Below, piece after piece: positions 6,638 to 24,392 of a stretch of DNA of 64,000 nt. Position 1 is the stretch's first letter; each line of letters starts with the position of its first letter. The stretch is from contig JAFDXR010000013.1 of the NCBI GenBank assembly GCA_018267825.1, forward strand, positions 202,275 through 266,274. The letters are read 5' to 3'. This DNA comes from Bacteroidota bacterium (lineage in GTDB: Bacteria; Bacteroidota; Bacteroidia; B-17B0; Aurantibacillaceae). The notes under the pieces are model-generated. The model worked only from the letters and a program-made list of their open reading frames with translations, was not told the DNA's origin and did not search any database. Position numbers and translations under genes: made by a program.

Positions 6638-6666
6638 AAAAAAAGCGCCTATATGATATAAGCGCT
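6638..6666 (-). terminator. Rho-independent terminator after the 128-aa secreted protein gene
   Basis: The near-perfect palindrome AGCGCCTATAT-G-ATATAAGCGCT (6644-6666, one mismatch) is followed on the minus strand by seven T residues (6644-6638). It lies 25 bp after the stop of the upstream gene and ends exactly at the start codon of the next gene. Confidence 0.75.
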
Positions 6667-6691
6667 CTAAATATACTAATTTTTAAAATCG

Positions 6692-7078
6692 TTATTTATT
6701 TTTTTCCAGCCATTCACGCGGTGCTTTTGTAACACCATTGGCAGTAATCGAGGTAATTCCATATTTCAAAGCAAGAGCTACATAATATTGTTTATTGTGC
6801 ATCTCTTTCATTTTGATTTTGGCATTGTAGTTACCGTTTGCATCTTTACCAAGATCTTCGCAGGAAGCAACATCAGGATTGCTTCTCAACTTCTGATAGA
6901 AAGCAATCGCCTCATTTTGATTACTGAAACCACTGAAAGCCGAATTGATCTCTGTTTTAGTTTTCAATCCACCATTTGCAATATCGTCTTTAATAGTCCA
7001 GCTCAAGTTGGTTTGGGCAAACGATCTTCCTGATAAAAGCATCAGTGCAAAAATAGCTATTGATAAAATTTTTTTCAT
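6692..7078 (-). CDS. Small secreted protein of unknown function
   Basis: 128 aa with a clear signal peptide (MKKILSIAIFALMLLSGRSFA, cleavage near residue 21). The mature part has the alternating pattern beta-alpha-beta-beta-alpha-beta that would fit a small ferredoxin-like or HMA-like domain (helix around NEAIAFYQKLR, strand around NYNAKIKMKEM). This fold guess is inference, and no metal-binding CxxC is present. A single Cys (SCEDL) remains after processing. It is followed by a strong terminator and so is probably transcribed alone. I do not recognise the family. Confidence 0.7.
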   Translation of the reverse strand: MKKILSIAIFALMLLSGRSFAQTNLSWTIKDDIANGGLKTKTEINSAFSGFSNQNEAIAFYQKLRSNPDVASCEDLGKDANGNYNAKIKMKEMHNKQYYVALALKYGITSITANGVTKAPREWLEKNK

Positions 7079-7329: not shown

Positions 7330-8340
7330 GTGAAAGCCTACATACAAGCCATTAGTTACCACTTACCGGAGCGGGTATTCACAAATGATGATTTTTTTTC
7401 GTTATTCCCGGAATCCTTAAATCACAAAAGTAACCTGAAAAAAATAGGCATATCGGAGCGGCGTATTGCTGCCCCGGATGAAACGGCGTCTGATCTTGCA
7501 GTGAAAGCCGCGGAGAAATTATTTGCAGAACATCAAATAAGCCCGCTGCACGTAGACTTTATACTTTTCTGTGCTCAGGAGTTTGACTATTATACACCCA
7601 CTACAGCCTGTATTATTCAATCGAGGCTTAACATTCCTACTCACTGTGGAGCTATGGACTTTAATCAGGGATGTACTGGTTATGTGTATGGATTAAGTCT
7701 GGCCAAAGGCTTCATTGAATCCATGGCATGCCGTAATGTACTTTTGCTGACCGCTTCAACGGTAACACGGAAATTTCACCCACGCGACAGAAGCTCCAGG
7801 TTTTTGTTTGGGGATGGTGCCGCTGCTACCCTTATCTGTACCCGTGAAAAACAAGGGATCGGTCAGTTTGTTTTCGGAACAGACGGGAGCCGTGCCGACC
7901 GGATTATTATCCGGGACGGAGGCGCCAGGAACCCGATTACCGAAGCGTCGTTTGTGGATATTAGCGATGAATTCGGCAACACCACTAATCAGGCTTCCCT
8001 TTACATGAACGGTGCGGCTATTTTCAACTTCGGGCTGAAAACCGTGCCCACTGTCATTACAGAAACATTACTGAAAAACAACAAATCGATGGAGGATATT
8101 GATATGTTTGTGTTTCACCAGGCGAACCTCTTCCTGATCCAAACGATTGCAAAAAAAATGAATATACCCGATCAAAAAATTTTTAACTTTGTTGAAACCG
8201 TTGGAAATACTGTATCTTCAACAATCCCCATTGTACTGGCGGAGGGTCTGAAGTGCGGAAAGATCAGGCAGGGATATACTGTTCTTGTTTGCGGTTTCGG
8301 AACAGGGCTTTCATGGGCCGCAACCTGTATTGAATTGTAA
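7330..8340 (+). CDS. 3-oxoacyl-ACP synthase III-like ketosynthase (KAS III), first copy
   Basis: 336 aa with the full KAS III catalytic triad: Cys115 in FNQGCTGYVYG, His263 in VFHQAN, and Asn293 in VGNTVSS. KAS III enzymes condense a short acyl-CoA starter with malonyl-ACP. The start is a GTG, chosen because it gives the normal family N-terminus and sits 20 nt after a -7 box. The gene leads a tight operon with an ACP, a second KAS III and an SDR, which points to a dedicated short-chain acyl pathway rather than housekeeping fatty-acid synthesis. The exact chain product is unknown. Confidence 0.9.
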   Translation: MKAYIQAISYHLPERVFTNDDFFSLFPESLNHKSNLKKIGISERRIAAPDETASDLAVKAAEKLFAEHQISPLHVDFILFCAQEFDYYTPTTACIIQSRLNIPTHCGAMDFNQGCTGYVYGLSLAKGFIESMACRNVLLLTASTVTRKFHPRDRSSRFLFGDGAAATLICTREKQGIGQFVFGTDGSRADRIIIRDGGARNPITEASFVDISDEFGNTTNQASLYMNGAAIFNFGLKTVPTVITETLLKNNKSMEDIDMFVFHQANLFLIQTIAKKMNIPDQKIFNFVETVGNTVSSTIPIVLAEGLKCGKIRQGYTVLVCGFGTGLSWAATCIEL

Positions 8341-8351
8341 ACCTATTGACT

Positions 8352-8588
8352 ATGATGACACTGGAAGAATTTACCGTAAACCTCGAAAAAGAATTTGAAG
8401 GAGTGGAACCCGGATCATTTACACCTGACACCCACTATCGCGACATAAAAAACTGGAGCTCTATATATGCGCTTATTGTTGTGGCGTTTGTTGATCTTAA
8501 TTTCAATGTTATTCTGAATGCTACTGATCTTCGTAGCACTAATACCATTCGTGAATTGTATGACTTAGCCGTGCAAAAACATGTTTAA
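8352..8588 (+). CDS. Dedicated acyl carrier protein with atypical WSSI attachment site
   Basis: 78 aa from the ATG at 8352 (a TTG six bases earlier or the ATG at 8355 are alternatives). The four-helix ACP pattern is clear. The phosphopantetheine serine should be Ser37 in NWSSIYAL, where most ACPs have DSL; the usual Asp is Ser here. By family knowledge the Ser receives 4'-phosphopantetheine from a holo-ACP synthase. It lies 11 nt after the first KAS III and overlaps the second by 8 nt, so it almost certainly carries their product. It is not the main fatty-acid ACP, which normally sits beside fabF. Confidence 0.85.
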   Translation: MMTLEEFTVNLEKEFEGVEPGSFTPDTHYRDIKNWSSIYALIVVAFVDLNFNVILNATDLRSTNTIRELYDLAVQKHV

Positions 8589-9633
8589 TACCATACACCA
8601 CGTTGCCCTGAAAGGTCTTTCGGTATGTGTTCCATCGAAGGTTGAAAGGACCATGGATTACAACTGGATCAGCGAGGAAGAACGTGCCATGTTTATCCGG
8701 AACACAGGTGTGGAAGAGAAGCGTACTGCCGGAAAAGGCATGGCAACCTCCGACCTGTGCGAGCGTTCGGCCAATGCCCTGATCGAAAAGCTGGGTTGGG
8801 AACGTAACAGTATTGATGTGCTTATTTTTGTATCTCAATCCCCTGATTATTTTTTGCCCGCTACCTCCGCTATTCTGCAGAATAAACTGCAGCTAAAAAA
8901 AGATCTGGTTGCTTTCGACGTGAATCTGGGCTGTAGCGGCTATATATACGGCCTTCAGATTATTTCAAATTTACTGGCTGCAGGAAATTTCAAACGCGGT
9001 TTATTACTGGCGGGTGATAAATCCACCCTTTCCACCAATTACCGTGACAAGAGTACATACCCCCTGTTTGGTGATGCCGGCACTGCAACTGCCCTGGAGT
9101 TTAATGAGTCTGCTCCGCCCATGTATTTCAACCTCTTTACAGATGGTAGCGGATATAAATCGATCATTGTTGAAGATGGAGGATCCCGCAATCATGTGTC
9201 GCAGGATTCGTTTGTGGAAGTTAAAATAGATGAAGGTATTTACCGTTGCAGAATAAACCTGGTACTCGACGGTATGGAAATTTTCAATTTTGCGCTGCGT
9301 GAGGTAGCCCCCAGTATAGAAAACATTCTGAAAGAAAGCGGCGTGGCAAAAGAAACAATCGACTATTTTGTATTTCACCAGGCCAACCGGCTGATTAATG
9401 AAAGTGTTCGAAAAAAATGCCGCGTGGAACCTGAAAAAGTCCCATACTCCATTGATAAATTTGGGAACACAAGTTCTGCCTCTGTTCCATTGACGATGCT
9501 TTACAAGTTAAAACAGAATCTTGAAAGCAGATCGTTGAAACTTTTGCTGAGTGGGTTTGGCGTTGGTTACTCCTGGGGCAATTGTATTGTTCAAACAGAC
9601 AACCTTGTGTGTACCGATATACTTGAAATCTGA
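8581..9633 (+). CDS. 3-oxoacyl-ACP synthase III-like ketosynthase (KAS III), second copy
   Basis: 350 aa, clearly a diverged paralogue of the gene at 7330. The triad is intact: Cys118 in VNLGCSGYIYG, His266 in VFHQANR and Asn296 in KFGNTSSA. Both copies therefore look active, unlike KS/CLF pairs where one partner loses the Cys. Translation is probably coupled, since it overlaps the ACP by 8 nt and the downstream SDR by one base (TGATG). A two-step extension, or starter selection by one copy and extension by the other, is inference. Confidence 0.9.
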   Translation: MFNTIHHVALKGLSVCVPSKVERTMDYNWISEEERAMFIRNTGVEEKRTAGKGMATSDLCERSANALIEKLGWERNSIDVLIFVSQSPDYFLPATSAILQNKLQLKKDLVAFDVNLGCSGYIYGLQIISNLLAAGNFKRGLLLAGDKSTLSTNYRDKSTYPLFGDAGTATALEFNESAPPMYFNLFTDGSGYKSIIVEDGGSRNHVSQDSFVEVKIDEGIYRCRINLVLDGMEIFNFALREVAPSIENILKESGVAKETIDYFVFHQANRLINESVRKKCRVEPEKVPYSIDKFGNTSSASVPLTMLYKLKQNLESRSLKLLLSGFGVGYSWGNCIVQTDNLVCTDILEI

Positions 9634-10388
9634 TGACCAAATTTAGTCTTGATAAACACATTATCCTGATAACAGGTGCTTCTTCGGGCATCGGGCGTTC
9701 CTGTGCTGTTGAAGCTTCCCGTATGGGAGCCACCTGCATTCTTACAGGCCGTAACGAAGAAGAGTTAAAACGGACAGCCGGTCTGTGTTCTACTCCTGCC
9801 ACCATCTTTTCGGGCGATCTGACTGCACTCGACGTGATTCAAAAACTGGTGAGTGGTTTACCTAAACTGGATGGCGTTATTCATTGTGCCGGGATTACAC
9901 ATCCATGGCCTATTAAGTTTTTAAAGCCGGAGCATATCAAAACCATGTTTGATATCAATTATACAGCTCCCGTTTTATTAACGACAGAACTGCTGCAGAA
10001 AAATAAAATCAATGATGACGCTTCTTTCATTTTTATATCTTCGATCTCTGCGCAACATCCATACTACGGTGGCGCTACTTATGCCAGCTCCAAAGCAGCC
10101 ATAGAGGCGTTCAGTAAATCCCTGGCTATTGAAATGGCGCCACGCCGTGTAAGATCGAATGTGATACGGCCGGGTCTTGTAAAGACGCGGATGTTCGATG
10201 AAGCCAAAGGCGCTTCGGTCGACAGCGAAAATTTTGATCAGTATGAGAAATTCTACCCGCTGGGATTTGGAGAGGCGGAAGATGTGTCGAACGCGGCCTG
10301 TTACTTATTAAGCAAAGAGTCGAGGTGGATTACGGGTACTGAAATAAAAATGGATGGCGGACTTATATTAAACAGTAAAAAAAATTGA
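9633..10388 (+). CDS. SDR-family oxidoreductase, FabG-like
   Basis: 251 aa. The NAD(P)-binding motif TGASSGIG is at residues 14-21, and the catalytic Ser137, Tyr150 and Lys154 occur in SSISA and YASSK. The C-terminal TGTEIKMDGG is the usual classical-SDR ending. The position after two ketosynthases and an ACP suggests reduction of a 3-oxoacyl-ACP to a 3-hydroxyacyl-ACP, as FabG does. A role on a sugar nucleotide cannot be excluded. It ends in a TTGA overlap with the next gene. Confidence 0.88.
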   Translation: MTKFSLDKHIILITGASSGIGRSCAVEASRMGATCILTGRNEEELKRTAGLCSTPATIFSGDLTALDVIQKLVSGLPKLDGVIHCAGITHPWPIKFLKPEHIKTMFDINYTAPVLLTTELLQKNKINDDASFIFISSISAQHPYYGGATYASSKAAIEAFSKSLAIEMAPRRVRSNVIRPGLVKTRMFDEAKGASVDSENFDQYEKFYPLGFGEAEDVSNAACYLLSKESRWITGTEIKMDGGLILNSKKN

Positions 10389-11305
10389 GCGGGCTTATTC
10401 AATATAGTGTGGTTATTCCCGTGTTTGGTGCAGAAAAATCGCTTGAACAGCTTCATCATGCTATTTGCGGTTTTTTCGCAAACCGGTATTCATTTGAAGT
10501 CATTTATGTAAATGACGGCAGCCGGGATCATAGCTGGGAAGTTCTCAGGCGAATGAAGCAGAGTTCTGAAAACATGATCGCCGTTAATCTCTGTAAAAAT
10601 TACGGGCAACATGCAGCTACGATATGCGGCATAAAACATTCGCGCGGACAGTTTGTTATTACAATGGACGATGATCTGGAAGTGCATCCGGATGAAATTG
10701 CCAAATTAATTGCCTCGCAGACCAACACCGGATCCGATATTGTGTATGGCGTTTATCCAAAGTTGAATCAATCTTTTTTGAGGGCAATGCTCACATCGGT
10801 TTACAAGCTGCTTGCCAAGACAGAAGGCCGGGAGAAAGGCAAAGGCAGTAGTTTCCGGCTTATGAAAAGAGACCTGGCCAAAAAACTGTCGGACAATCAC
10901 AAACAATTTGTTTTTATTGATGAATTGTGTCTGTGGTATACTGATAAGATTACGTTTTTACCCTGCGAACCAAATAAGGCCTTTATCAACAAACAACGTT
11001 ATGGCCTGAGCAGTTTATTTTCTCTTACATCTACAGTAGTTTTGTTTTCGTCAACATTTCCACTGAAACTTGTTACCCGCATCGGCATTGCTTTATCTGC
11101 TACAAACCTGATCATTGGCTGTCATTACCTGTTTAAGAAGCTATTTTATAAAATCCCGGTGAGTGGTTATACCTCTTTGATTGTGAGTATTCTCTTTTCC
11201 ACAGGGCTCATCATTTTTTGCATTGGCATTATTGCCCAGTACCTTTCTCAAATACTCCGTTCGGTTAATAATGCTCCCTCCTACAGCGAAAGCGAAGTCA
11301 TATGA
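10385..11305 (+). CDS. GT2 glycosyltransferase of the DPM1/GtrB type with two C-terminal membrane helices
   Basis: 306 aa. The GT-A nucleotide-binding pattern is seen in VVIPVFG (9-15), YVNDGSRD (41-48) and the metal-binding MDDD (94-97). Two hydrophobic helices at about 232-252 and 265-290 match GtrB/ArnC/YfdH enzymes, which load a sugar onto undecaprenyl phosphate at the inner membrane. The start is a TTG overlapping the SDR stop by 4 bases (TTGA), so translational coupling is likely. In context it may supply a polyprenyl-linked sugar that is then modified by the acyl and sulfate enzymes nearby; this is inference. Confidence 0.85.
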   Translation: MSGLIQYSVVIPVFGAEKSLEQLHHAICGFFANRYSFEVIYVNDGSRDHSWEVLRRMKQSSENMIAVNLCKNYGQHAATICGIKHSRGQFVITMDDDLEVHPDEIAKLIASQTNTGSDIVYGVYPKLNQSFLRAMLTSVYKLLAKTEGREKGKGSSFRLMKRDLAKKLSDNHKQFVFIDELCLWYTDKITFLPCEPNKAFINKQRYGLSSLFSLTSTVVLFSSTFPLKLVTRIGIALSATNLIIGCHYLFKKLFYKIPVSGYTSLIVSILFSTGLIIFCIGIIAQYLSQILRSVNNAPSYSESEVI

Positions 11306-11925
11306 TTATTCTGGAGCAATATGGTGTGAGGCTGGTCAGGCTTCGTGAAAATGACATTGAATTAGTTCGCTACTGGCGCAATAAAAGCGACATTGCAAAC
11401 TTCATGGAATACCGCCGTTACATTACTCCATACGAGCAGCTTGCATGGTTTAAAAGCATCAACAATAAACTCAATTATTACTTCATTATAGAATACGAAG
11501 GGAAAAAAGTAGGATTGATCAACTCCAAAAACTATGATCCGGCTTTAGGTTTCAGTGAAGGCGGGATTTTCATCTGGGACAAATCCTATATCGACTCCTA
11601 TGTAGCTATATACAGTACGCTGTGCTTTCTCAACTTTATTTTTCACGTATTAAAAATCAGCAAAACATCCATGGCCCGTATTCTCCGGACTAACACCCGC
11701 GCTATTCAATACAACAAACAGATTGGTTACAGGCTATTGCCGGGCCAGGAAAATGTAGAGAATCAGCTGTATGAACTCACGGAAGAGGATTACCTCGAAA
11801 AGGGTGGAAAACTCAATAAGGCGGCTGCACTCTTAAATCCGGGATATGAAACCTTACGCTATAGCGGCGTGATCTGCCCTGAGAATCTGGATGAAGTGAA
11901 CCGTTTACTGGAAGCCATCAAATAA
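11302..11925 (+). CDS. GNAT N-acyltransferase, PseH/RimL-like
   Basis: 207 aa. The N-terminal pattern VRLRENDIELVRYWRNK, followed by a Thr-rich site and Trp/Phe, matches the RimL/PseH branch of GNAT enzymes, which acylate amino groups of amino sugars or proteins. It overlaps the GT2 gene by 4 bases (ATGA), so it belongs to the KAS III/ACP operon. I infer that it moves the acyl group made by that quartet onto an amino sugar. Its last 21 bp overlap the 3' end of the convergent hydroxylase gene. Confidence 0.75.
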   Translation: MIILEQYGVRLVRLRENDIELVRYWRNKSDIANFMEYRRYITPYEQLAWFKSINNKLNYYFIIEYEGKKVGLINSKNYDPALGFSEGGIFIWDKSYIDSYVAIYSTLCFLNFIFHVLKISKTSMARILRTNTRAIQYNKQIGYRLLPGQENVENQLYELTEEDYLEKGGKLNKAAALLNPGYETLRYSGVICPENLDEVNRLLEAIK

Positions 11926-12606
11926 AAGGTAGCCCCGCTCAAAGTATTCCTGCCACTGCTGCCTGGTTGCCAGCGACAATAGAAACGGATCGTCGATGTG
12001 TTCTATTTTATATTTCGATATTTCATGTGCGCTATAACCCCAAGCCGGATTTGGAATATCAAACATCAGAACAACGCGTTTGGAATCACTCCTGTTCCAG
12101 GCTTCATGATCAAAAGAGTCGTCGAATACCATGAGTTCACCCTCTTTCCAGTGCCTTGTTTCGTTGCCCACGCGAATACCACAAAGTGTTTCGCTGGGTA
12201 CAATGAGCGGCAGATGGCAACGTAATACCATTTTACTGTAACCTTTATGCGGCAGGATATGTGTATGGGGCTCCATGAAAGAAAAATCGCAGGATATAAT
12301 TTCAGGTATACTGTATACAAGCTCCGCTGTTTTCTTGCAAAGCTCTGCATGCGCCGGAAATTTCATGGAAAAAAAATTGAATGAAAATACTTTCCATGCT
12401 TTATAGGTGTCGGATTTTACGTAGTCGGGAAAAGTGCGAAGCCACTGAGGATCCTGCTTCATATCGAGCAGTTTTAATAGCTCTCCGCGAATCACATCAA
12501 CATGATCAACCAGCGGTTGAAGAAATTTAAAGTCACCTGCGTTGTAAAAATAAGCCGGGTTTTTGGGTGTAAATTCGGCAACAGACATAATCAAAGAATT
12601 GGTCAT
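11905..12606 (-). CDS. Aspartyl/asparaginyl beta-hydroxylase (LpxO/AspH)-family dioxygenase, copy 1
   Basis: 233 aa. The cupin-like core shows ILPHKG with His120, RCHLPL, and FDDSFDHEAWN with His167, the two-His iron site and 2-oxoglutarate Arg pattern of this family. Known members hydroxylate Asp/Asn side chains or, for LpxO, carbon 2 of a lipid A acyl chain. There is no signal peptide, so it is cytoplasmic or membrane-surface associated. Two paralogues follow on the opposite strand, 69 bp away. Its substrate is unknown; the acyl-synthesis neighbours favour an acyl chain over a protein. Confidence 0.82.
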   Translation of the reverse strand: MTNSLIMSVAEFTPKNPAYFYNAGDFKFLQPLVDHVDVIRGELLKLLDMKQDPQWLRTFPDYVKSDTYKAWKVFSFNFFSMKFPAHAELCKKTAELVYSIPEIISCDFSFMEPHTHILPHKGYSKMVLRCHLPLIVPSETLCGIRVGNETRHWKEGELMVFDDSFDHEAWNRSDSKRVVLMFDIPNPAWGYSAHEISKYKIEHIDDPFLLSLATRQQWQEYFERGYLLFDGFQ

Positions 12607-12650
12607 TTAAAATTAGCAAAAAAACTGCGAAAAGTCATGGCGATGCGATG

Positions 12651-12658
12651 TATATTTA
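12651..12658 (+). promoter_or_regulatory. Possible -7 box for hydroxylase copies 2 and 3
   Basis: TATATTTA differs from TAnnTTTG only at the last base and lies 17 nt before the ATG at 12676, inside the 69-bp divergent gap between hydroxylase copies 1 and 2. Confidence 0.35.
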
Positions 12659-12675
12659 ACTAACTTAGCTCAACA

Positions 12676-13431
12676 ATGATGAAGCCAGCACCTACACTGT
12701 GGTTCAGTATTCATGACTTCAATGACCGCTATCCCGGCACGGAACCTTCGTTTATTGAACCTTCGTCATTTGCCTGGTCAAAGGACCTTGCAGCACAGGT
12801 CCATCTGATCAAACAGGAACTTGGTGCCTATCTTCAGAAGCATCAGCTGGATGGTTATTTCAACAAAGCTATGGTCAACAACCGCAACAGCTGGAAAACC
12901 ATTGCATTGAAAACCTGGAGTGTTGAATTGTTCAGGAATCAAAAAGCGTTTCCTCAGACAACAGCATTACTGAATAAGTACCCTGAGATTGTTTCAGCTT
13001 CTTTTAATTTATTGGAGCCGGGAGCACACATCCTGCCACACTCGGGCGACACCAATGCTATTTTTCGCTGTCATCTCGGGCTTGACATTCCGGCCGGACT
13101 TCCGGCGTGCGGATTCAGAGTCAGGGATGAAAAACGTGCCTGGGAAAATGGTCAATGGCTTATATTTATAGATGCACATGATCATGAAGCCTGGAACGAT
13201 TCTCCAAATCCACGCTATATTTTCCTGCTTGATGTGATGCGCGATGAGTTTAAAGCAAAGCAGACATTTGTGTGTTCCACTGTTCTCACTTCACTGTTTC
13301 TGCAGAAACGCGCACAGACTTTTAAATTCTTACAAAAAGCCAAACCAGCAACTGTCAGGTTTTTATCGGCCACATTGCGCCCCTTTGCAGCTGCAGCTCT
13401 TTGGTTCTCCAATACATTAAAATTATTCTGA
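12676..13431 (+). CDS. LpxO/AspH-family dioxygenase, copy 2
   Basis: 251 aa. The same core as copy 1 is seen: ILPHSGDTN with His122, RCHLGLDIP, and DAHDHEAWND with His170, so iron ligands are conserved. It has an additional C-terminal basic/hydrophobic tail (about 205-251) that could associate with the membrane. It overlaps copy 3 by one base (TGATG) and the two are surely co-transcribed. Reaction known for the family: Fe(II)- and 2-oxoglutarate-dependent hydroxylation. Substrate unknown. A second ATG three bases downstream is an equally good start. Confidence 0.82.
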   Translation: MMKPAPTLWFSIHDFNDRYPGTEPSFIEPSSFAWSKDLAAQVHLIKQELGAYLQKHQLDGYFNKAMVNNRNSWKTIALKTWSVELFRNQKAFPQTTALLNKYPEIVSASFNLLEPGAHILPHSGDTNAIFRCHLGLDIPAGLPACGFRVRDEKRAWENGQWLIFIDAHDHEAWNDSPNPRYIFLLDVMRDEFKAKQTFVCSTVLTSLFLQKRAQTFKFLQKAKPATVRFLSATLRPFAAAALWFSNTLKLF

Positions 13432-14150
13432 TGGCCACAATTCAAAAATGGTTCTCTTTTTCTGAAAACGAAGACTTTGAAGGTCCGGAACCTCCTTTTT
13501 TTGACATCAGTAATAAGCCCTGGAAAAAACTCCTGGAAAACAACTACCAGGTTATCCTAAGCGAATTACAAGCCCTGATCGATGAACAGAATCAGAATAT
13601 TGTACCATACTTCAATCAGACACTTGCTTCCAAACCTACGTCATGGACCGTTTTCCCATTAATTTTCTGGAACAAACCCTACGAGGACAATTGCCTGAAG
13701 GTACCTAAAACACTTGCTGTCATTCGCCAGATTCCGGGTGTGATGTCCTGTGGCTTTTCTATATTAAAAGCCAACAGTCGTATTAAACCACATTATGGCG
13801 ACAGCAATGTTATGTATCGCTGCCACTTAACACTCCGTTGCCCGGGCACTTTACCGGAGATCGGTTTCAGGGTCAAGGATCAGACCATTGCCTGGGAAAC
13901 GGGCAAACTCATTGCTTTCTGTGATGCGCATAATCATGAGGTATGGAATGATACGTCTGAGGACCGCTGGATACTGATCATTGATATTCTGAGAGAAGAA
14001 CTATTACCTGAGCAAAAGAAAATCTGCAAGCTTGTAAATGCAACATTGTGGTGGCAACTGAAATTTCAGAAACATTATTTCATGAAGCATTTGCCAAGGT
14101 GGACCCGCCGGTGGATGATGTATGCCACTGCACCTTTCATGGCAGCCTAG
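13431..14150 (+). CDS. LpxO/AspH-family dioxygenase, copy 3
   Basis: 239 aa from the ATG at 13431. An upstream in-frame start at 13401 would overlap copy 2 by 30 bp and adds an unrelated hydrophobic leader, so it is rejected. The core shows IKPHYGDSN with His121, RCHLTLRCPG and DAHNHEVWND with His169. Copies 2 and 3 share the arrangement GFRV(R/K)D then (R/I)AWE, so they look like an internal duplication. Its stop overlaps the stop of the convergent SGNH gene by 4 bp (CTAG). Confidence 0.8.
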   Translation: MATIQKWFSFSENEDFEGPEPPFFDISNKPWKKLLENNYQVILSELQALIDEQNQNIVPYFNQTLASKPTSWTVFPLIFWNKPYEDNCLKVPKTLAVIRQIPGVMSCGFSILKANSRIKPHYGDSNVMYRCHLTLRCPGTLPEIGFRVKDQTIAWETGKLIAFCDAHNHEVWNDTSEDRWILIIDILREELLPEQKKICKLVNATLWWQLKFQKHYFMKHLPRWTRRWMMYATAPFMAA

Positions 14151-15085
14151 TATACCAGCATGAGGCTGTCGAGGCTTCGTTTTAATACAGGGGTAAATTG
14201 ATTCCTGCCCTGCTGATTCAGGTGATGCGAATCAAAAAACTTATCTGGTTGTCCCGCAAACATGTATTCAAAATCCAGAACCGGGATTCCCTCTGCTTTA
14301 AGAATCTCTTCAGAAGGCCTGTGATTCATGAAGCTACTGTCTATATGGTTGCGCAACTCCACAAAAACTTCGTCTGAAAGCGGAAACTTCAGATAAACGG
14401 GCTTAATATGATACTGCTTACAGAGTACCAATGTTCTTTTAAGAAATTCAATAGATTTAGGATCGAACAGACCGGCGGCATCTCCTCCTTGCATAAGCTC
14501 GTCTACAACAAAATGTTCTGCCATTTTCCTTCTCTGCTCGGGTGGCCTGGCAGAGAATTTCTCTTTAGATTTTTTCTGGCGATCCATATTCACCCTGTTC
14601 AAAGCATACTGCCATTCGTTGTACGGAAAAATTCCTGTTTTGGCATAATCATAATACATGGACGCCGGGTTGTCATCGAGTCCTGACAAGTCGGAAACAG
14701 GAATGAAGCGATAATAAAAAAATTTATTAGTCCGAAACCTGTAAAACCCTTTCGCAAAGGTAATAATATCGCAGGGGAAAAGAGCATATTTCGGAACCGG
14801 ATAGCCATGTTCCAGGCAATACTTTAATTTGTAGTAGTTCATCATGTTGTTTTCACCATAATACCCCAGCATAAACGAAGAGTCGATCTGCGATTCATCA
14901 ATACTACGTTCGGTATGTGAGTCGCCCATGAAAAGTATCTTCACGTTTTTCTTCGCTTTAAAGTGATTCAACTGGATCGTTAATTCATGCTTCCGATTGC
15001 TCACTATCTTCATGGCATAGCATAGCCCCAGGTGGACTATGATTGCCAACAGAAGCAGAATTATGAATTTCTTACGCTGTGTCAT
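14147..15085 (-). CDS. SGNH/GDSL-like hydrolase, partner of the MBOAT acyltransferase
   Basis: 312 aa from the ATG at 15085, which overlaps the MBOAT stop as ATGA. A longer frame to 15202 lies wholly within the MBOAT gene and is rejected. One N-terminal membrane helix (about 7-25) anchors a periplasmic SGNH domain: FMGDSHTE with Ser56 at residues 52-59 and the C-terminal Asp285-His288 pair in FFDSHHLN. Tandem MBOAT plus SGNH proteins (AlgI with AlgJ/AlgX, DltB with DltD, PatA with PatB) move acyl groups across the membrane to glycans. The same role is inferred here. Confidence 0.8.
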   Translation of the reverse strand: MTQRKKFIILLLLAIIVHLGLCYAMKIVSNRKHELTIQLNHFKAKKNVKILFMGDSHTERSIDESQIDSSFMLGYYGENNMMNYYKLKYCLEHGYPVPKYALFPCDIITFAKGFYRFRTNKFFYYRFIPVSDLSGLDDNPASMYYDYAKTGIFPYNEWQYALNRVNMDRQKKSKEKFSARPPEQRRKMAEHFVVDELMQGGDAAGLFDPKSIEFLKRTLVLCKQYHIKPVYLKFPLSDEVFVELRNHIDSSFMNHRPSEEILKAEGIPVLDFEYMFAGQPDKFFDSHHLNQQGRNQFTPVLKRSLDSLMLVY

Positions 15086-16491
15086 CAGAACTGGAAATAT
15101 TGAAATGCGACTTCTGATCTTGAGCTGAACAGAATAATTGAAAAAAATATAAATAAATAAACCAATGCCCGCCAGTGAAATAGACAGATTCGCTGAAAAC
15201 AATGCCCGTCAGCGGTTTTCTGTAATACCTGCAAGACCTCAAAAAGTCCAATGAAAAAGAAAATGTATACGAGTTTTATACCATCCAGATATTTGAAATG
15301 CGGCGACCACACATGTTGCAGCATGTACACTGAATCCTTAAAAGACACCGGACGAAAAAACACAACCAGGAATGAGAACATTGACATAACAGCTATGTAA
15401 TTGATCACTCCCTGAACCCAGCCGTTACGGTTGATATGCATAGCAGAAAAAAGCCCGCGTCTGAAATCTTTTGTTATAATATCAAGCAGCATAAATAAAA
15501 AAGCCAACTGCGCGTATATCATGTAATTTAATGTTGCGCCATGCCAGATACCAACAACAATGAACACCATCCATAAATTAAATACAGTCCGCAACTTATT
15601 GTTCTTTACAACACCTCCCAGCGGGTCAAATATATACTCCTTCAGCCACCTGGAAAATGTAGTATGCCAGCGATTCCATAATTCGCGGTAATTTCTCGAA
15701 AAAAAAGGCTTATTAAAATTGGCAGGCAATGATACCCCAAAGCAAAGGGCGGAGCCAATGGCAATGTCTGAATATCCCGAAAAATCAGTATAAATCTGGT
15801 ACATGAACGAAAAACAGAGCACAACAAAATCAAGTCCGTTAGCCATTTGAATATGACCATACATGGGATTTATAATCTGGGCAATACTATCGGCTATAAC
15901 CAGTTTTTTAAAAAGCCCCCACAAGATCAACTTACTCCCATCGATTATACATTGCCAGTTAAATGAAGGAAATGCATTTAATTGTTCAGAGATAACTTTT
16001 GATTTTTCAATGGGCCCTGCAATCAGCTGAGGGAAGAAGCTCACCGAAAGTGCATAAGTTAAAAAGGAAGAAGCCGGTGCGTATTTGCGTTTATACACAT
16101 CTATACAATAACCAACGGTTTTAAATGTATAAAACGAAATACCAATCGGGATCAGTAACTTCTGGGCCGACCAACCGGGCCAATTCATTATATCCATTGG
16201 AATAATATGAACATACTTAAACAAAACAAAAATCAAAAGATCGAGTAACAGGCCAAGCCAAAAGAAAAACTTCCGACTTACCGGTGAATCTGCTTTATAA
16301 CAGTAAGCCGATGTAACGAATGTAAAGGCGCTTGTCAGGAGCATTAACAGGGCAAAACCGAAACCAAATATAGCATAGAAAAAATAGGAGGCCAGCAATA
16401 AAACATAATGGCGCCCTCGTTTCGGGGTCAAATAATAGGAAACAATAACCAAAAATAAAAAAGCCAGATATGGAAACGAAGCAAAATTCAT
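15085..16491 (-). CDS. MBOAT-family membrane O-acyltransferase (AlgI-like)
   Basis: 468 aa with about ten membrane helices. The family motifs are clear: RELWNRWHTTFSRWL with His276, and VVGIWHGATLNY with the catalytic His317. The length matches AlgI/DltB-type proteins. These take an acyl group from the cytoplasm and pass it through the membrane to a periplasmic partner; in AlgI it is acetyl. It is translationally coupled to the SGNH gene and lies 13 bp after a sulfotransferase gene, so O-acylation and sulfation probably target the same polymer or lipid. Confidence 0.92.
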   Translation of the reverse strand: MNFASFPYLAFLFLVIVSYYLTPKRGRHYVLLLASYFFYAIFGFGFALLMLLTSAFTFVTSAYCYKADSPVSRKFFFWLGLLLDLLIFVLFKYVHIIPMDIMNWPGWSAQKLLIPIGISFYTFKTVGYCIDVYKRKYAPASSFLTYALSVSFFPQLIAGPIEKSKVISEQLNAFPSFNWQCIIDGSKLILWGLFKKLVIADSIAQIINPMYGHIQMANGLDFVVLCFSFMYQIYTDFSGYSDIAIGSALCFGVSLPANFNKPFFSRNYRELWNRWHTTFSRWLKEYIFDPLGGVVKNNKLRTVFNLWMVFIVVGIWHGATLNYMIYAQLAFLFMLLDIITKDFRRGLFSAMHINRNGWVQGVINYIAVMSMFSFLVVFFRPVSFKDSVYMLQHVWSPHFKYLDGIKLVYIFFFIGLFEVLQVLQKTADGHCFQRICLFHWRALVYLFIFFSIILFSSRSEVAFQYFQF

Positions 16492-16504
16492 TTAGTAGAC
16501 CTTT

Positions 16505-17539
16505 TTATTTTCTGACTACAAATCTGAGCCTCCAGGAAAGCGGAATTCTCAATCGTAAGGAATGAAGGTTATAATAAAGTTGAACTTTCAGGCGGCTTAG
16601 CCAAAGTCTGAAACCTACAGCCGGATTACCCTGAGGAAAGTGCTCTGCCCTATAGCCAAACTGTTCACCATAATATCTGCAGGCAAAATCAAGCAACCGG
16701 ATTTCTTCTTCAGTCAATTCTTTCTTATAGGATGCCACTCGGGTGGTGTTGACCTGATTTTCAAGGTTATGATGCATGGCCGTAAGCTTTGCATACTCCT
16801 GGTCACTCAGGTTTTGTTTAATATAATTTTTGATACCCTTTGAAAGTTCCTGAAACTGCAGCATACTTTCATCGAAGGTAATATCCAGAAATGTACAAAG
16901 CTTATCCAATGTTTCTGCAGGGCTGTCCACAAGATCCTCATACCGGAGTAACATATACTCGAGGTCATTTTTACGAATACTTCGGAAAATACGCTCATAG
17001 AAATAATTCCATGATTCGGCCAGTGTAAACAGAGAACTTTCCTTATCCGAATATTTCTTCCTTGACACAATGTTGTCGCGGTAATCGCGGGTAAGCACAA
17101 TAAACCTGGCATCCGGGAACAGACGGTAAAGATCGTCGATATACAGGGAATAAACGGGATTCTTATCGACCAGACAGGTTACCTTTTCCTTGTTCTTATC
17201 AGCAAAAGGGTAATGAAGATAGACCTGCTTGCAGACTTCCGGGTATGTCGGATGCGAAAGTCCCAGTATGCCATCTTTCAGCCCTTTTTCAGGTGTCCAG
17301 AAGCTGATGACTTTGCTGAAACGATAGTGGAACAGGCTCACAAAAGCATCGACAGTTGCCTGTTTTGTAAAATCTTCTTTACGAAATGCCCGAGCTGTGA
17401 ACATCACAAATTCATTTTCAGGACATGCAATCACCGAAGGATGAGAGTTAAGCATGTTGGTAAGGAGCGTGGTGCCTGAGCGACCCATGCCAACAATGAA
17501 AGTCATGCGTGGTGACTGATTATTTTTCGATGAATCCAA
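16505..17539 (-). CDS. PAPS-dependent sulfotransferase, copy A
   Basis: 344 aa. The 5'-phosphosulfate loop FIVGMGRSGTTLL lies at 14-26, and the 3'-phosphate-binding Arg/Ser motif is in FIVLTRDYRDNIVSRK at about 145-160. These are the two PAPS contacts of the Sulfotransfer_1/3 family. No signal peptide, so a cytosolic enzyme. Its start overlaps the upstream sulfotransferase stop by 20 bp. Acceptor unknown; nearby glycosyl and acyl enzymes suggest a glycan or glycolipid hydroxyl. No PAPS-synthesis gene is in the window. Confidence 0.88.
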   Translation of the reverse strand: MDSSKNNQSPRMTFIVGMGRSGTTLLTNMLNSHPSVIACPENEFVMFTARAFRKEDFTKQATVDAFVSLFHYRFSKVISFWTPEKGLKDGILGLSHPTYPEVCKQVYLHYPFADKNKEKVTCLVDKNPVYSLYIDDLYRLFPDARFIVLTRDYRDNIVSRKKYSDKESSLFTLAESWNYFYERIFRSIRKNDLEYMLLRYEDLVDSPAETLDKLCTFLDITFDESMLQFQELSKGIKNYIKQNLSDQEYAKLTAMHHNLENQVNTTRVASYKKELTEEEIRLLDFACRYYGEQFGYRAEHFPQGNPAVGFRLWLSRLKVQLYYNLHSLRLRIPLSWRLRFVVRK

Positions 17540-18590
17540 ATTCGGTATATTTCTTTTTGAGTCGTTTCAATTTCCAGGAGCCCGGCAGTTTATACAAGAT
17601 ACGATCTTTTAGAATATCAGCATAGCCTCTGATTATTGAGGGCAAATGCCGGCAAAAGACCTGCATTTTCACATAAAAAGGAAGGTCGGTCACAGGTTCA
17701 TACCCCAGTTTCATAGCTATTTTCCCGCAGATGGCATCACATATCATGATTTCGGACTCACTCAGGTGTTGTTTCCATGAATAGAGCCTGTCAGCATTTA
17801 CAGGACGGTTCAGATCCGAATATTTTTTAGAAAAGCGCTCCCTGTATTTCTCCGCTACATTATGTGCATCGATATCTACAACCGGTGCAGGAGCCGTTTC
17901 CTGATCGCTGCTTACTCCCAAGAAGCTGGTAATTTTCGCCATCTGAAGTTGATATTCTGAAACTAGTTCTTCATACCTGACTAACAGCACACGATCCGGA
18001 TGCCGGCGACTGAAACGATAAGCCCTGGTGTTATAGAGCCTCCATCGCATAGCATTGTATGCCACATCCGGCGACCGGAGAGAAGCACTTTGTTTTCGTG
18101 ACAATATATTGGCTCTGTAGTCCCGAACCATCCAGATGAACCGGGTATTTGGATATTGTTCCAGAATTTCATCCGTAAAAATGGTAGATGAAGGGTTTTT
18201 ATCAACCAGTACTTTTGCGCTACTTTTATCGTATCCCTGAACGCGGAAGTGACGGTAAATGACCAGGCATATTTCGCCAAAACTCAGTGCTGACTGTTTT
18301 TGCAATCGTTCATATATATCTTCTTTTGCTACTACTGCATCAAAACTCCAACCTACCCATGGGTGCGATAAGCCGTAGGTATATATCTGATCGAAAATGC
18401 ATTCGATATCCTCTTTGCGAAAATGTGACTTGTGCCTGAAACGACTCAGAAAAAACACCAGAAAAATAGCCTCCGGCATACAATGTACATCCCGGAGCCC
18501 ATTCAGCATCTTATTCAGAATGGAAGTCCCGGAACGACCAATACCAATAATAAAATAAAGTTTTTCAGCTTCTGTATTTTGCGTCGTCAT
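17520..18590 (-). CDS. PAPS-dependent sulfotransferase, copy B
   Basis: 356 aa. PAPS motifs are FIIGIGRSGTSIL (13-25) and FIWMVRDYRANILSRK. Only the signature motifs and a basic C-terminal tail are shared with copies A and C; the middle regions, expected to contact the acceptor, differ. This suggests different positions or acceptors, which is inference. A -7 box lies 8 nt upstream of its ATG, so it probably leads an operon of copy B, copy A, MBOAT and SGNH. Confidence 0.88.
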   Translation of the reverse strand: MTTQNTEAEKLYFIIGIGRSGTSILNKMLNGLRDVHCMPEAIFLVFFLSRFRHKSHFRKEDIECIFDQIYTYGLSHPWVGWSFDAVVAKEDIYERLQKQSALSFGEICLVIYRHFRVQGYDKSSAKVLVDKNPSSTIFTDEILEQYPNTRFIWMVRDYRANILSRKQSASLRSPDVAYNAMRWRLYNTRAYRFSRRHPDRVLLVRYEELVSEYQLQMAKITSFLGVSSDQETAPAPVVDIDAHNVAEKYRERFSKKYSDLNRPVNADRLYSWKQHLSESEIMICDAICGKIAMKLGYEPVTDLPFYVKMQVFCRHLPSIIRGYADILKDRILYKLPGSWKLKRLKKKYTEFGFIEK

Positions 18591-18598
18591 TATATGTT

Positions 18599-18606
18599 CA
18601 AATATA
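18599..18606 (-). promoter_or_regulatory. -7 box for the sulfotransferase/MBOAT/SGNH operon
   Basis: Minus-strand TATATTTG (18606-18599), an exact TAnnTTTG match, 8 nt before the ATG at 18590. The predicted leader is only a few nucleotides. No good -33 element was seen. The 154-bp gap 18591-18744 holds nothing else recognisable. Confidence 0.5.
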
Positions 18607-18744
18607 ACAACAAAATGCTTTTTTCCTATGCTCTACTGTGCTAATAAGCATGACAGAAACAAAGCCGCGGTGAAACCATCAACATGAAAACCCGCATTCA
18701 GATAAGCATCGGACGTGATCTACTTTTGTATTCAGTCACGTGAG

Positions 18745-19905
18745 TTATTTTAGTTTATCAGAATTTGATTTATCTGTTTCATTGCGCAACCGGTAGCCGT
18801 ATTTTACTTTTTTTATGGCATACTTCACAGAAAATGGTAATGCAAAATACATTTTCGGAAACCAAACAAGTCTGATTGTCCAATACAATTGGCGAAAACG
18901 CAGTATAGGGTTCCATTTTATTTCCTTAAAATCTTCATCTTCCAAATACCCTACCTCCCTGGCTGAATTGGCAGACAAGGTCCATACCAGATTAGCATCT
19001 TCCGGTTTCATGCTGCTTTTCCACAATCCTATTTTATCTGTATTTACTTTTTGTGCAAGCCCCTGGTGAAAAAGTCTGAATTGTCGCTTTAATTTATCGT
19101 CCATATTCTCCACCCTATCTTTCATTTCTGATCTAAAATAAGCGTCGTGTTCCAGCATCACTGAATTGTATCGGATCTCCAAAAAAAGACAAATCTGCTT
19201 AAGTGTATCTTCCGGATTTGACACTAAATCTTCGTACTTCACATGCATGAATCTTGCTTTACCAATTTTCAAAGCCTTTTCCCTGATGCCAGAGAATGTA
19301 TAATTCCATACAAAACCATATTTAAAATAACTGGCCCTTCGGTTCCCTTTCGTTGCACGTTTCCATTTTGTCAGGGCATTATCTCTGGGATCACGATACA
19401 ACACAATAAACCTGGCATCGGGATATATAGCCGCAAGTTCTTCCAGAAAAAAGAGTGATTTAAGTTCCTTTTCTATAAGTGTTGTAACATTCGACTTATC
19501 CTTATTTGGGAAAAAACATAAAAAAGCCAGTTTAATCGCGCTATACACATCTAAGTAATCCAAATGTTCCATCAATATTGTTTCCAAATCCTGATATGTT
19601 CCAAATTGTGCGGCTAATAATCCTTCTGAAAACAAATAAAAATCGTAGCAAAATTCTTTCACTACCTCCGGGGTCCATTTTTTTACCTTTTTGTATTTCG
19701 GGAAAAGCTTATAAGCAAATGGTTCTTCGGAAATAGATACAACCTGCTCGTTCATATTAAGCATATTGGCCAAAAGAGTACTCCCGGAACGTCCTGTAGA
19801 GAGAATAAAATGGAGCTTAATATGTTGGGTATTTATAATAAGACCGAAAAATAAGTATAAGAAATAAATGCATGCCAACGAATGAGTGAAGGATCTGTAA
19901 GCCAT
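18745..19905 (-). CDS. PAPS-dependent sulfotransferase, copy C, with hydrophobic N-terminus
   Basis: 386 aa. The PAPS motifs are FILSTGRSGSTLL (about 33-45) and FIVLYRDPRDNALTK. Unlike copies A and B it has a hydrophobic segment at residues 10-24 (LACIYFLYLFFGLII) before the sulfotransferase fold. That could be a true membrane anchor, or the start could be misplaced, but no Met or typical alternative start lies between it and the loop. It is followed by a 154-bp gap and a new promoter, so it may be a separate unit. Confidence 0.82.
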   Translation of the reverse strand: MAYRSFTHSLACIYFLYLFFGLIINTQHIKLHFILSTGRSGSTLLANMLNMNEQVVSISEEPFAYKLFPKYKKVKKWTPEVVKEFCYDFYLFSEGLLAAQFGTYQDLETILMEHLDYLDVYSAIKLAFLCFFPNKDKSNVTTLIEKELKSLFFLEELAAIYPDARFIVLYRDPRDNALTKWKRATKGNRRASYFKYGFVWNYTFSGIREKALKIGKARFMHVKYEDLVSNPEDTLKQICLFLEIRYNSVMLEHDAYFRSEMKDRVENMDDKLKRQFRLFHQGLAQKVNTDKIGLWKSSMKPEDANLVWTLSANSAREVGYLEDEDFKEIKWNPILRFRQLYWTIRLVWFPKMYFALPFSVKYAIKKVKYGYRLRNETDKSNSDKLK

Positions 19906-19951: not shown

Positions 19952-22327
19952 TTAAAACGTCAGACGATATTGCGGTATGACAAAGAATTTGAGCTGATAG
20001 TCGGTTTTAATGGTGTGTGTATTCAGATCATATTGCTGCTGAAATACATTATTATGGTGAGTAACATTCTGAATATCGACACTTACTTCATGCGTAAAAC
20101 GTTTTGTATTGAGTTTATAGGATGGCTTTATATCCCACCGGAAATAGGGACCGAATTGCGGAACATAGGCCTGTGAACCAATGTAGCGTTCTTCGTTTGC
20201 GGCCATGGATGCTGCCAGATCAATAGGCACATAATGTTTACCACCGGCAAACGTCAGCTTTGTATCCAGGGCGAGTGTATGTCTCTTCCTGATTTTAAAT
20301 TCCTTTCCACCCAGCAGGTTCACCACATAATTTCCATTGAAAGCTGTATTGCGGTATACATGATCACTGCCATAGTACTTGCTCTGAAATAAAGAACCGG
20401 TCATGAGTACATAATAACCCTTGCTGTAAAATTTCTCGAGTGTGAGTTCCAATCCGTAATTATCACCCGTGCCTTTATTCACAAGGCTGTCGACATTCGG
20501 GCTGTTGAAATCGGCACCGAGGTTAATGGCCGAAAAATAATCAGAACGGGTACGCACCGGCACACTATAGAGGTACTGATAATAGGCCTCTACCTTTATG
20601 CGGGCACTATTGAAAACCGACACATCATAGGCTACCACCGCATGTGCAGCCCTTGTAAAATCGAGGTTACGGTTTGTTTCTTCAAACCCCTTGCCGGTAT
20701 GCGCTGTAGCAAAATAAATATAAAGCGGTTGCAGCTGGCTGTGCATGCCTGCCCCAAAGCTCAGCGACTGCCTGGAGCTGAGATCATATTTCAGACCGAG
20801 ACGTGGTTCCGGCGATTGTGAACCATTCAGAAGCAGGTACTGATAGCTAAGCCCCGTGTTGAGCGTGAGTTTATCGGTAAACTTGTGCTGCCACTGTATA
20901 AATACCCTGCCAAGGCCCGTCTGCCCTGTGTAATTGCGGAGTGTAATAAATCCAAGACCGTCGAAATTATTGATACTGTCGACAAATGAGGTATTGTACC
21001 AATCGAAATAGAAGCCTGTACTTACAAAGTTCCGGGCATTGAATTTTTTATTATAAGTCAGGTTGGCCGAATAACGCCATGTGTAGGATGTGTTTCTATA
21101 TTCCGGATTCACAATGTTGGGCACTACATTGGTATCGATCCTGTCGGCCCGTATGAAATTATACTGACCACTGACACCAATATTGGTTTTGATATAAGAA
21201 GAGTTGTTGACGAGGTATGTGTGCGAGATCCCCGATGCTCCTACATTCGACCGAAAATAAGTGTCGCGGCCGCTGTAGCCATACAGGTTATTTCCTTTCG
21301 ACTGATCTTTGGAAAGCAAGGCCACATAACTCAAACCACCGATCCCCCATACTGAAAACTTACCGGCTTTTTTGGTCGGCAGATCCACCTTGAAGGTAAG
21401 ATCCTGGTATTGCGGCACGGCAGCACCTGTTCCAAAATCAAGTCCAATGTATTTGAAAACCGATAATGTGGAATAACGGTAATTGACCAGAAATGAACCG
21501 TTCTTCTTTTTCCTGGAGAAAGGGCCTTCTGTACCGAGTTCAAAACCGTTGAAGCCCACTTGCCCGAGGAATTCGTATTTCTCATTATTTCCGCTCCGCA
21601 TTTTCAGATCAAACACACCGGCAGTGGCGTTACCATAATCGGCCGGGAAGGCCCCGGTGATAAAATCGGAATTATCGAGTGTGTTGTTGTTCAGTATGCT
21701 GATCGGCCCGCCGGTAGAGCCCAATGAACCAAAGTGGTTCGGATTGGGGATATCAAGTCCGTTCAAACGCCATAATACCCCGAGTGGTGAGTTACCACGG
21801 ATAACAATATCATTACGGCTATCGTTAGCACCACTGACACCGGCAAAGTTGGCAGCCATCCGGGCAGGATCGTTACGGCTCCCTGCATAACGACTGGCTT
21901 CGTCGGCCGAAAAAACACGGGCACTGACGGTTGCCATTTTATTATTCGTTTTTGTTTTATCCTGTTCTGCGGTAATAACCACTTCATCGCCCTGCACGGC
22001 ATTTTCTTCCAGTTCAACATTCAATACAGATTCTTTTCCGCTGGTAAGAACCACCGTGAGCACTTTTTCCTTGTAACTGATCAGTGAAATCTTAACCTGC
22101 CAACGGCCAATGGGTATATGTTCAAGTCTGAACTTACCTTTCTCATCGGTTGTGGTGGCCTGGGTCGGGTCACTGCTGCCAACCAGGCTGACTACCACAC
22201 CCGGCAGAGGGCCCTGGGTCTGCTTGTCGAGCACAGTGCCCCGAATGGTCTGGTATAAATCCTGCCCCCGCAAAACAGGCGCCAACAGGATGCCACATAC
22301 GATTATGAAGAACCTCAACCGAAACAC
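19952..22327 (-). CDS. TonB-dependent receptor with carboxypeptidase-regulatory-like N-terminal domain
   Basis: 791 aa from a GTG at 22327. A signal peptide covers residues 1-21, then a CarboxypepD_reg-like beta-sandwich (about 27-105, IRGTVLDKQTQGPLPGVVV), a plug domain (about 130-230) and a 22-strand-type barrel ending in Phe (QYRLTF). Receptors of this kind import siderophores, vitamins or oligomers using TonB energy. No SusD-like partner is adjacent, so it is not a classic SusCD pair. The ligand cannot be told from sequence. Its start lies 10 bp after the SDR stop, so the two may share a transcript. Confidence 0.9.
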   Translation of the reverse strand: MFRLRFFIIVCGILLAPVLRGQDLYQTIRGTVLDKQTQGPLPGVVVSLVGSSDPTQATTTDEKGKFRLEHIPIGRWQVKISLISYKEKVLTVVLTSGKESVLNVELEENAVQGDEVVITAEQDKTKTNNKMATVSARVFSADEASRYAGSRNDPARMAANFAGVSGANDSRNDIVIRGNSPLGVLWRLNGLDIPNPNHFGSLGSTGGPISILNNNTLDNSDFITGAFPADYGNATAGVFDLKMRSGNNEKYEFLGQVGFNGFELGTEGPFSRKKKNGSFLVNYRYSTLSVFKYIGLDFGTGAAVPQYQDLTFKVDLPTKKAGKFSVWGIGGLSYVALLSKDQSKGNNLYGYSGRDTYFRSNVGASGISHTYLVNNSSYIKTNIGVSGQYNFIRADRIDTNVVPNIVNPEYRNTSYTWRYSANLTYNKKFNARNFVSTGFYFDWYNTSFVDSINNFDGLGFITLRNYTGQTGLGRVFIQWQHKFTDKLTLNTGLSYQYLLLNGSQSPEPRLGLKYDLSSRQSLSFGAGMHSQLQPLYIYFATAHTGKGFEETNRNLDFTRAAHAVVAYDVSVFNSARIKVEAYYQYLYSVPVRTRSDYFSAINLGADFNSPNVDSLVNKGTGDNYGLELTLEKFYSKGYYVLMTGSLFQSKYYGSDHVYRNTAFNGNYVVNLLGGKEFKIRKRHTLALDTKLTFAGGKHYVPIDLAASMAANEERYIGSQAYVPQFGPYFRWDIKPSYKLNTKRFTHEVSVDIQNVTHHNNVFQQQYDLNTHTIKTDYQLKFFVIPQYRLTF

Positions 22328-22337
22328 GTTTTAATTT

Positions 22338-24388: not shown

Positions 24389-24392
24389 GGCT

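Follow-up and report, generated by a model that had tools for sequence, protein, structure and literature searches.

Introduction

What does a bacterium make with two ketoacyl synthases, three hydroxylases and three sulfotransferases encoded side by side? The question is raised by a 64,000-nucleotide stretch of a Bacteroidota bacterium genome (assembly GCA_018267825.1, contig JAFDXR010000013.1, positions 202,275 to 266,274), hereafter called the window. A prediction made from the letters alone had assigned window positions 7330–19905 to a single pathway of acyl synthesis, hydroxylation, O-acylation and sulfation. Here, we describe a wider locus. The genes are part of a conserved Bacteroidota cluster that appears to build an unusual amino sugar bearing acyl, hydroxyl, sulfate and O-acyl groups. 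On balance, we favour a role as a dedicated O-glycosylation system for giant surface adhesins exported by the type IX secretion system (T9SS). According to a 2025 review, the protein O-glycan transferases of Bacteroidota are still undiscovered and homologs of eukaryotic O-mannosylation enzymes should be sought (PMC12871550). The locus gives concrete candidates for such transferases, already paired with putative acceptors.

Results

The genes form one conserved locus

All of the open reading frames (ORFs) that the original prediction had placed in 7330–19905 were found at the same coordinates. Pfam supports the enzyme families named: two KAS III proteins, a FabG-like short-chain dehydrogenase/reductase (SDR), a GT2 glycosyltransferase, a GNAT, three Asp_Arg_Hydrox proteins (AspH1 to AspH3), an MBOAT and three Sulfotransfer_3 proteins. 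The exceptions are an acyl carrier protein (ACP) and an SGNH protein, considered below. The six genes from the first KAS III to the GNAT are close-packed or overlapping, as in an operon (successive ends and starts at 8340/8346, 8588/8581, 9633/9633, 10388/10385 and 11305/11302). The ORF positions bear out the interval as drawn, except that its left edge was set too short. Genes at 4673–6637 and 6692–7078, for a TMTC-like glycosyltransferase and a small secreted protein, also belong to the locus. Further left, an adhesin array begins in 1–4561 and runs for about 20 kb further upstream.

Co-presence was surveyed in 121 genomes (this one and 120 relatives). A strong ortholog of the second KAS III gene (KAS3b) was present in 38 of the 121. 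Among these 38, genes of the AspH family (PF05118) lay within 15 kb in 28, and a sulfotransferase within 16 kb in 19. Fisher tests of co-presence with the KAS3b ortholog gave p = 1e-13 for AspH and p = 7e-8 for the sulfotransferases, values that overstate independence because the genomes are related. In the regions fetched from relatives, the order KAS-ACP-KAS-SDR-GT2-GNAT recurs with a convergent AspH1, then AspH2 and sometimes AspH3, at 35–70% identity. Synteny that takes in the TMTC-like transferase and runs through to AspH1 is kept in many genomes, at 35–70% identity. Two genomes of other genera, G031 (locus L043) and G037 (locus L044), have the window order AspH1-AspH2-AspH3-SGNH-MBOAT followed by sulfotransferases 1 and 2 (ST1 and ST2). 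The two depart from it in that G031 has an additional gene for a YitT-family membrane protein and G037 a third sulfotransferase, which is ST1-like. Co-occurrence had been proposed as a check on the single-pathway reading; the order across genera and the co-presence in the survey bear out a single locus. A reading of the genes as unrelated neighbours is rejected on the same synteny and co-presence.

A site beside rpsL-rpsG-fusA is common to several genomes, and the tailoring half of the locus varies between them. Both facts would suit an insertion hot spot at the str operon, where at least two independent functions (the acyl cassette, islands of AspH and sulfotransferase genes, and adhesin arrays) had become neighbours by insertion. 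Against such an origin, AspH1 and the GNAT gene converge in many genomes, the order spans genera and co-presence is strong. We regard it as very improbable.

An acyl quartet with two KAS III enzymes

The first four genes, all on the forward strand, encode KAS III no. 1 (KAS3a, 7330–8340), a dedicated ACP (8346–8588), KAS III no. 2 (KAS3b, 8581–9633) and a FabG-like 3-ketoacyl-ACP reductase (9633–10388). The KAS III proteins, both matched by Pfam, are proposed to catalyse the first and second condensation, respectively. The reductase matches adh_short_C2 (154 bits) and FabG models. The ACP call stands on gene position and on a W37-S38-S39 motif that is invariant in 15 orthologs; its Pfam match is not a confident one (PP-binding_2, E = 0.11). 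In 15 loci, the ACP gene always lies between the two KAS III genes, with the ketoreductase gene adjacent.

A tree of 66 KAS sequences separated two clades of 33, KAS3a (support 0.73) and KAS3b (support 0.998). The Cys-His-Asn triad is intact in all 66, window copies included. Each clade holds the window type together with copies from Flavobacterium polysaccharide clusters, and the O-antigen-type quartets of loci L073, L075, L090 and L091 are present in both. The tree took in these Flavobacterium copies without the F. psychrophilum wfp sequences. Its outgroup, E. coli FabH, was used for rooting and numbering only.

In F. psychrophilum, wfpC, D, E and F encode a KAS, an ACP, a KAS and a ketoreductase; the 3,5-dihydroxyhexanoyl group of the O-antigen is attributed to these genes (PMC6519341). 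The window has the same gene order and, like wfpC-D-E-F-G, an amino-sugar acyltransferase; there, the acyl group is found on Qui2NAc4NR. This is the precedent that the original prediction had pointed to; its assignment of the quartet to hydroxyacyl-ACP synthesis is supported. The viosamine island of Pseudomonas syringae (vioA, vioM, vioT, vioS, vioB, vioR and acp) likewise combines a KAS III, an ACP, a reductase and an acyltransferase to place a hydroxyacyl amide on an amino sugar, which there ends on flagellin (PMC3927599). Unlike the window, the island has one KAS III and makes a C4 acyl group, its VioT uses a dTDP-sugar, and it has neither a polyprenyl-phosphate step nor sulfation.

Because the two KAS III enzymes of wfp go with 3,5-dihydroxyhexanoyl and the single KAS III of P. 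syringae, with its ACP and reductase, goes with 3-hydroxybutanoyl, the number of condensation rounds would equal the number of KAS III enzymes. By this analogy, two KAS III enzymes, one ACP and one reductase would be enough to condense and reduce twice. The product here is most likely a short hydroxyacyl-ACP, 3,5-dihydroxyhexanoyl. The suggested rule, that KAS III number gives condensation number, would predict acyl groups on bacterial sugars. A requirement for dioxygenases to make a dihydroxyacyl group was considered and rejected, since two condensations are enough in the wfp precedent.

The spread of the quartet reaches widely outside Bacteroidota. Quartets or parts of them were seen in L069, L081, L097, L105 and L117, records labelled Alcanivoracaceae, Methylovorus, Stenotrophobium, Anaerolineae and Paenibacillus.

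Probable N-acylation and transfer to a lipid carrier

The next two genes are also on the forward strand. The first (10385–11305) encodes a GT2 that matches known structures over its full length, membrane C-terminus included (residues 4–304 to GtrB, 5ekp; residues 6–305 to ArnC). Its D95-D96-D97 motif is conserved. NCBIfam scores were 115.6 bits for ArnC, far below the equivalog cut-off of 529 bits, and 110.5 bits for PgfS. Judged by its sequence, the protein is a polyprenyl-phosphate glycosyltransferase of ArnC/GtrB/PgfS type, a type that transfers sugar onto undecaprenyl phosphate. The earlier label of a GtrB-type enzyme was apt, and the role of the undecaprenyl-phosphate carrier had been missed.

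The second gene (11302–11925) encodes a PseH-like GNAT, which we propose to be an acyl-ACP:amino-sugar N-acyltransferase. Its NCBIfam PseH score is below the cut-off (47.3 versus 93.1 bits). The PseH type suits the amino-sugar N-acylation that had been predicted for it. No PglD-type acyltransferase was found at the window locus; the GNAT occupies its place. In this the locus differs from wfp, where the acyltransferase is a PglD-type hexapeptide enzyme encoded within an O-antigen cluster. It differs from wfp further in adding the GtrB-type GT2, dioxygenases, sulfotransferases, an MBOAT and the TMTC-like transferase, and in having no sugar-nucleotide genes alongside. Matches to the DegT family occur elsewhere in the same genome, eight of them strong and one partial, and in F. 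fluviatile (L130) the locus itself includes a gene for a DegT sugar aminotransferase.

A TMTC-like transferase paired with giant adhesins

The gene at 4673–6637, on the reverse strand, encodes a 654-residue protein that is our candidate for the final transferase. Its AlphaFold2 (AF2) model (pLDDT 89) has a GT-C domain and a superhelix of tetratricopeptide repeats (TPRs); the C-terminal TPR domain is also matched by Pfam. A first search of the PDB was swamped by TPR matches and the GT-C part became visible on a second look. This part (residues ~2–441) aligned with STT3 (Z 20.7 over 334 residues), Pmt4 (Z 19.2 over 343), Pmt1-2 (Z 18.3 over 353) and ArnT (Z 18.1 over 344). An acidic motif in the first loop, D36-D37, is invariant in 23 homologs; human TMTCs also have a DD motif (PMC7801869). 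Going by the predicted model, the enzyme is a candidate Ser/Thr protein O-glycosyltransferase. Full-length TMTC-like genes number about six in the genome, and three of these belong to this locus or its array.

Directly downstream is the gene for a giant Ser/Thr-rich surface protein, the candidate acceptor (window 1–4561, reverse strand; an ORF of 1866 codons that reaches to about window position −1039). It was not listed by the original prediction because the ORF extends past the left end of the window. The giant carries TIGR04131 (NCBIfam, 54.2 bits) and the Pfam domains CHU_C (type IX secretion), Ig_7 and PKD_4. Upstream of the window, two further copies of the transferase/adhesin pair lie between it and the rpsL-rpsG-fusA operon. 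At C4:180286-206835 (L142, L163), the same contig holds a tandem array in which genes for giant T9SS type-B adhesins and for TMTC-like transferases alternate. This array also includes secreted proteins of 135–149 residues and adjoins the str ribosomal operon. Alternating arrays were also seen in G029 (L165), G046 (L147) and others. By manual count from tables, about 26 loci were readable, and in 16 of them a giant lies within two genes after the transferase. Genes with CHU_C above cut-off number only about 60 in this 4.8 Mb genome.

The arrangement resembles human cadherin O-mannosylation by DPM1 and TMTC1-4 (PMC7801869). Both have a DPM-like GT2 using polyprenyl phosphate, a GT-C enzyme with a DD motif, TPRs (lumenal in the human enzymes) and acceptors, putative in the window, with Ig-like beta-sandwich repeats. 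The systems differ in that the window sugar would be a modified amino sugar and in that the window transferase has no Pfam DUF1736 match. The parallel is structural and not proof of function. ArnC/ArnT and GtrB systems also pair a GT2 acting on undecaprenyl phosphate with a GT-C transferase of ArnT-like fold. ArnT, by contrast, has lipid A as its substrate and is without a TPR domain, and the window GT2 is far below the ArnC cut-off.

Lipopolysaccharide (LPS) branches are the classical role of GtrB-type enzymes. The main rival to protein glycosylation is decoration of LPS, O-antigen or capsule, in which the GT2 loads undecaprenyl phosphate and the GT-C enzyme adds the sugar to a polysaccharide side-branch, as in GtrABC serotype conversion, with the adhesins as unrelated neighbours. 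The same quartet occurs in Flavobacterium O-antigen-type clusters with PglD, PglC-like, DegT and PglF-like genes (PMC6519341). In F. xinjiangense (L091) these genes, and dTDP-sugar genes, accompany it. Variable tailoring resembles serotype loci, and some cassettes lack a TMTC-like gene. Conversely, in the window family neither wzx/wzy nor sugar-nucleotide genes could be recognised next to the locus, and the GT-C enzyme has a TPR domain and is repeatedly paired with giant T9SS adhesins. We consider LPS or capsule decoration unlikely. As a separate observation, L091 has a Rieske/ring-hydroxylating oxygenase gene between its PglD and ACP genes (L091:8675-9763), perhaps another acyl modifier.

The remaining gene at this end (6692–7078, reverse strand) encodes a small secreted protein of 128 residues. 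It is a conserved neighbour, with eight orthologs aligned. Its AF2 model (pLDDT 83) predicts an alpha/beta fold that looks ferredoxin-like by inspection; a PDB fold search with it gave no significant match.

Tailoring enzymes vary between relatives

Three Fe/2-oxoglutarate dioxygenases of PF05118, whose domain has two conserved His residues, follow the GNAT gene (Asp_Arg_Hydrox, 140–151 bits). AspH1 (11905–12606, reverse strand; 151 bits) retains H120 and H167, faces the GNAT gene tail to tail, as it does in relatives, and scores higher with OlsC (115 bits) than with LpxO (95 bits). AspH2 (12676–13431, forward strand; OlsC, 102 bits) has a conserved place, and AspH3 (13401–14150, forward strand; OlsC, 105 bits) is found in a subset of relatives. 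The best models for all three are acyl 2-hydroxylases, with scores far below the equivalog cut-offs of 450 and 500 bits (OlsC 102–115 bits; LpxO 51–95 bits). The genome has a fourth, divergent PF05118 gene at G000:C2:4821-5288 (69 bits).

The other tailoring genes are on the reverse strand. A DltB/AlgI-like membrane O-acyltransferase (15085–16491) passes the Pfam MBOAT cut-off of 27 bits with 77.4 bits and matches a DltB model (146 bits). Its SGNH-like partner (14147–15202; true start probably inside the ORF) is called by its motifs: it has GDSH and DSHHLN blocks in common with the single ortholog aligned, and no Pfam profile matched. Sulfotransferases 1 (16505–17539; 112 bits, and 49 bits with a NoeE model), 2 (17520–18590; 94.6 bits) and 3 (18745–19905; 102 bits; its N-terminal 29 residues may not belong) match Sulfotransfer_3. 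All three pass curated Pfam cut-offs (PF13469/PF00685; 94–112 bits) and they are the only matches to either family in the genome.

The original prediction had combined hydroxylation, O-acylation and sulfation in one pathway. This combination does not hold everywhere: the acyl, GT2 and GNAT half is constant, whereas the tailoring half varies between genomes. In relatives, other genes stand in place of, or beside, the sulfotransferases and the MBOAT/SGNH pair. L042 has a NodU-like carbamoyltransferase (L042:11147-12892) in the tailoring slot, and L048 has two cupin-8 dioxygenases between KAS3a and ACP. In L046 (L046:742-7683), the slot holds a prolyl-carrier dehydrogenase (PigA, 369 bits; RedW-type, 344 bits), an adenylation enzyme, a halogenase-like flavoenzyme and an 843-residue, weakly DltB-like protein. 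By sequence, this block looks like a pyrrole-2-carboxyl module; genes of similar size in L047, L053 and L062 may belong to a block of the same kind. These are family-level readings because no bit score reaches an equivalog cut-off. Sulfation, carbamoylation and pyrrole-type chemistry together make up an unusual repertoire, which the locus links to surface glycans in uncultured bacteria.

Nod factor biosynthesis (NodA/E/F/C/H, NodU, NoeE) similarly combines acyl synthesis, N-acylation, sulfation and carbamoylation. By that model, the locus could make a secreted or membrane glycolipid with no protein acceptor. The NoeE-like sulfotransferase, the NodU-like carbamoyltransferase of one relative and the resemblance of the AspH proteins to the lipid acyl 2-hydroxylases OlsC and LpxO would fit. 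Unlike the Nod system, the locus has no chitooligosaccharide synthase; its GT2 is of the polyprenyl-phosphate type, with a membrane C-terminus. Every Nod and OlsC match is far below cut-off, and a glycolipid product leaves the neighbouring GT-C enzyme unexplained. We think such a product improbable.

A proposed pathway for adhesin glycosylation

Since a TMTC-like GT-C enzyme and giant T9SS adhesins lie beside the operon, we prefer protein glycosylation to modification of an unspecified surface lipid or glycan. The single locus, the quartet and the GNAT of the original interpretation are retained here; the TMTC-like transferase and the adhesins had been missed. The substrates, the acceptor and the order of steps are what we infer as follows. 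KAS III no. 1, the ACP, the reductase and KAS III no. 2 would join acetyl and two malonyl units, each keto group being reduced. The PseH-like GNAT would attach the hydroxyacyl group to the amino function of an amino sugar that genes outside the locus supply, and the ArnC/GtrB-like GT2 would transfer the sugar to undecaprenyl phosphate. In the cytoplasm, AspH dioxygenases may hydroxylate the acyl chain (or the sugar) and the sulfotransferases may add sulfate. After flipping, MBOAT/SGNH would add an O-acyl group in the periplasm. Finally, the TPR superhelix of the TMTC-like enzyme would hold the adhesin while the decorated sugar is transferred to Ser/Thr, before T9SS export.

Several observations count against adhesin glycosylation. 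The window locus has no sugar-nucleotide genes, and no flippase was identified. The transferase gives no match at E 0.001 to Pfam DUF1736 (PF08409), a hallmark of eukaryotic TMTCs, and its gene is on the strand opposite the operon, so co-transcription is not implied. The cassette is without a detected TMTC-like neighbour in L039, L067, L069, L082 and L094, and TMTC-adhesin pairs occur without a cassette (contig C25 of the same genome). The Ser/Thr content of the adhesins is weakly above that of other CHU_C T9SS proteins (p 0.02, 4 versus 18, the tandem copies being non-independent). In the adhesins, the known Bacteroidota O-glycosylation motif, D(S/T)(A/I/L/M/T/V), shows no enrichment; overall, it is as frequent as expected from shuffling or less so.

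General Bacteroidota O-glycosylation (LFG; PMC12871550) also uses a polyprenyl-linked donor and periplasmic transfer to exported proteins. Unlike LFG, the window locus has no recognised wzx or long series of glycosyltransferases, and its adhesins lack the motif excess just described. On that ground, we rejected the adhesins as substrates of the known D(S/T) system; any modification of them would have to follow another rule.

A more specific version of adhesin glycosylation can be offered tentatively, as a possibility we hold with some doubt: a bacterial counterpart of the TMTC-cadherin system. Here, TMTC-like transferases, each with its own giant Ig-repeat adhesin, would attach a polyketide-like N-acylated amino sugar whose decorations swap between lineages in a serotype-like manner. 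The swapped outer decorations would be sulfate, carbamate, O-acyl, hydroxyls and perhaps a halogenated pyrrole. If true, this counterpart supplies candidates for the protein O-glycosyltransferases of the phylum. Literature searches of open papers found no described system with this combination, in line with the original prediction. Every chemical step has precedent; the assembly is without precedent in the openly available literature searched.

Flanking genes and regulatory signals

To the right of the locus (19952–25457) are genes for a TonB-dependent receptor, an SDR, an acyl-CoA dehydrogenase and AnmK. These were not seen at the locus in relatives that have the window arrangement. Scans of the window with Rfam and for tRNAs gave no matches, and promoter and terminator scans gave no signal above shuffled sequences. 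A hairpin followed by a T run lies at 6642–6668 on the reverse strand, between the gene for the 128-residue protein and that for the TMTC-like transferase, and is a possible attenuator.

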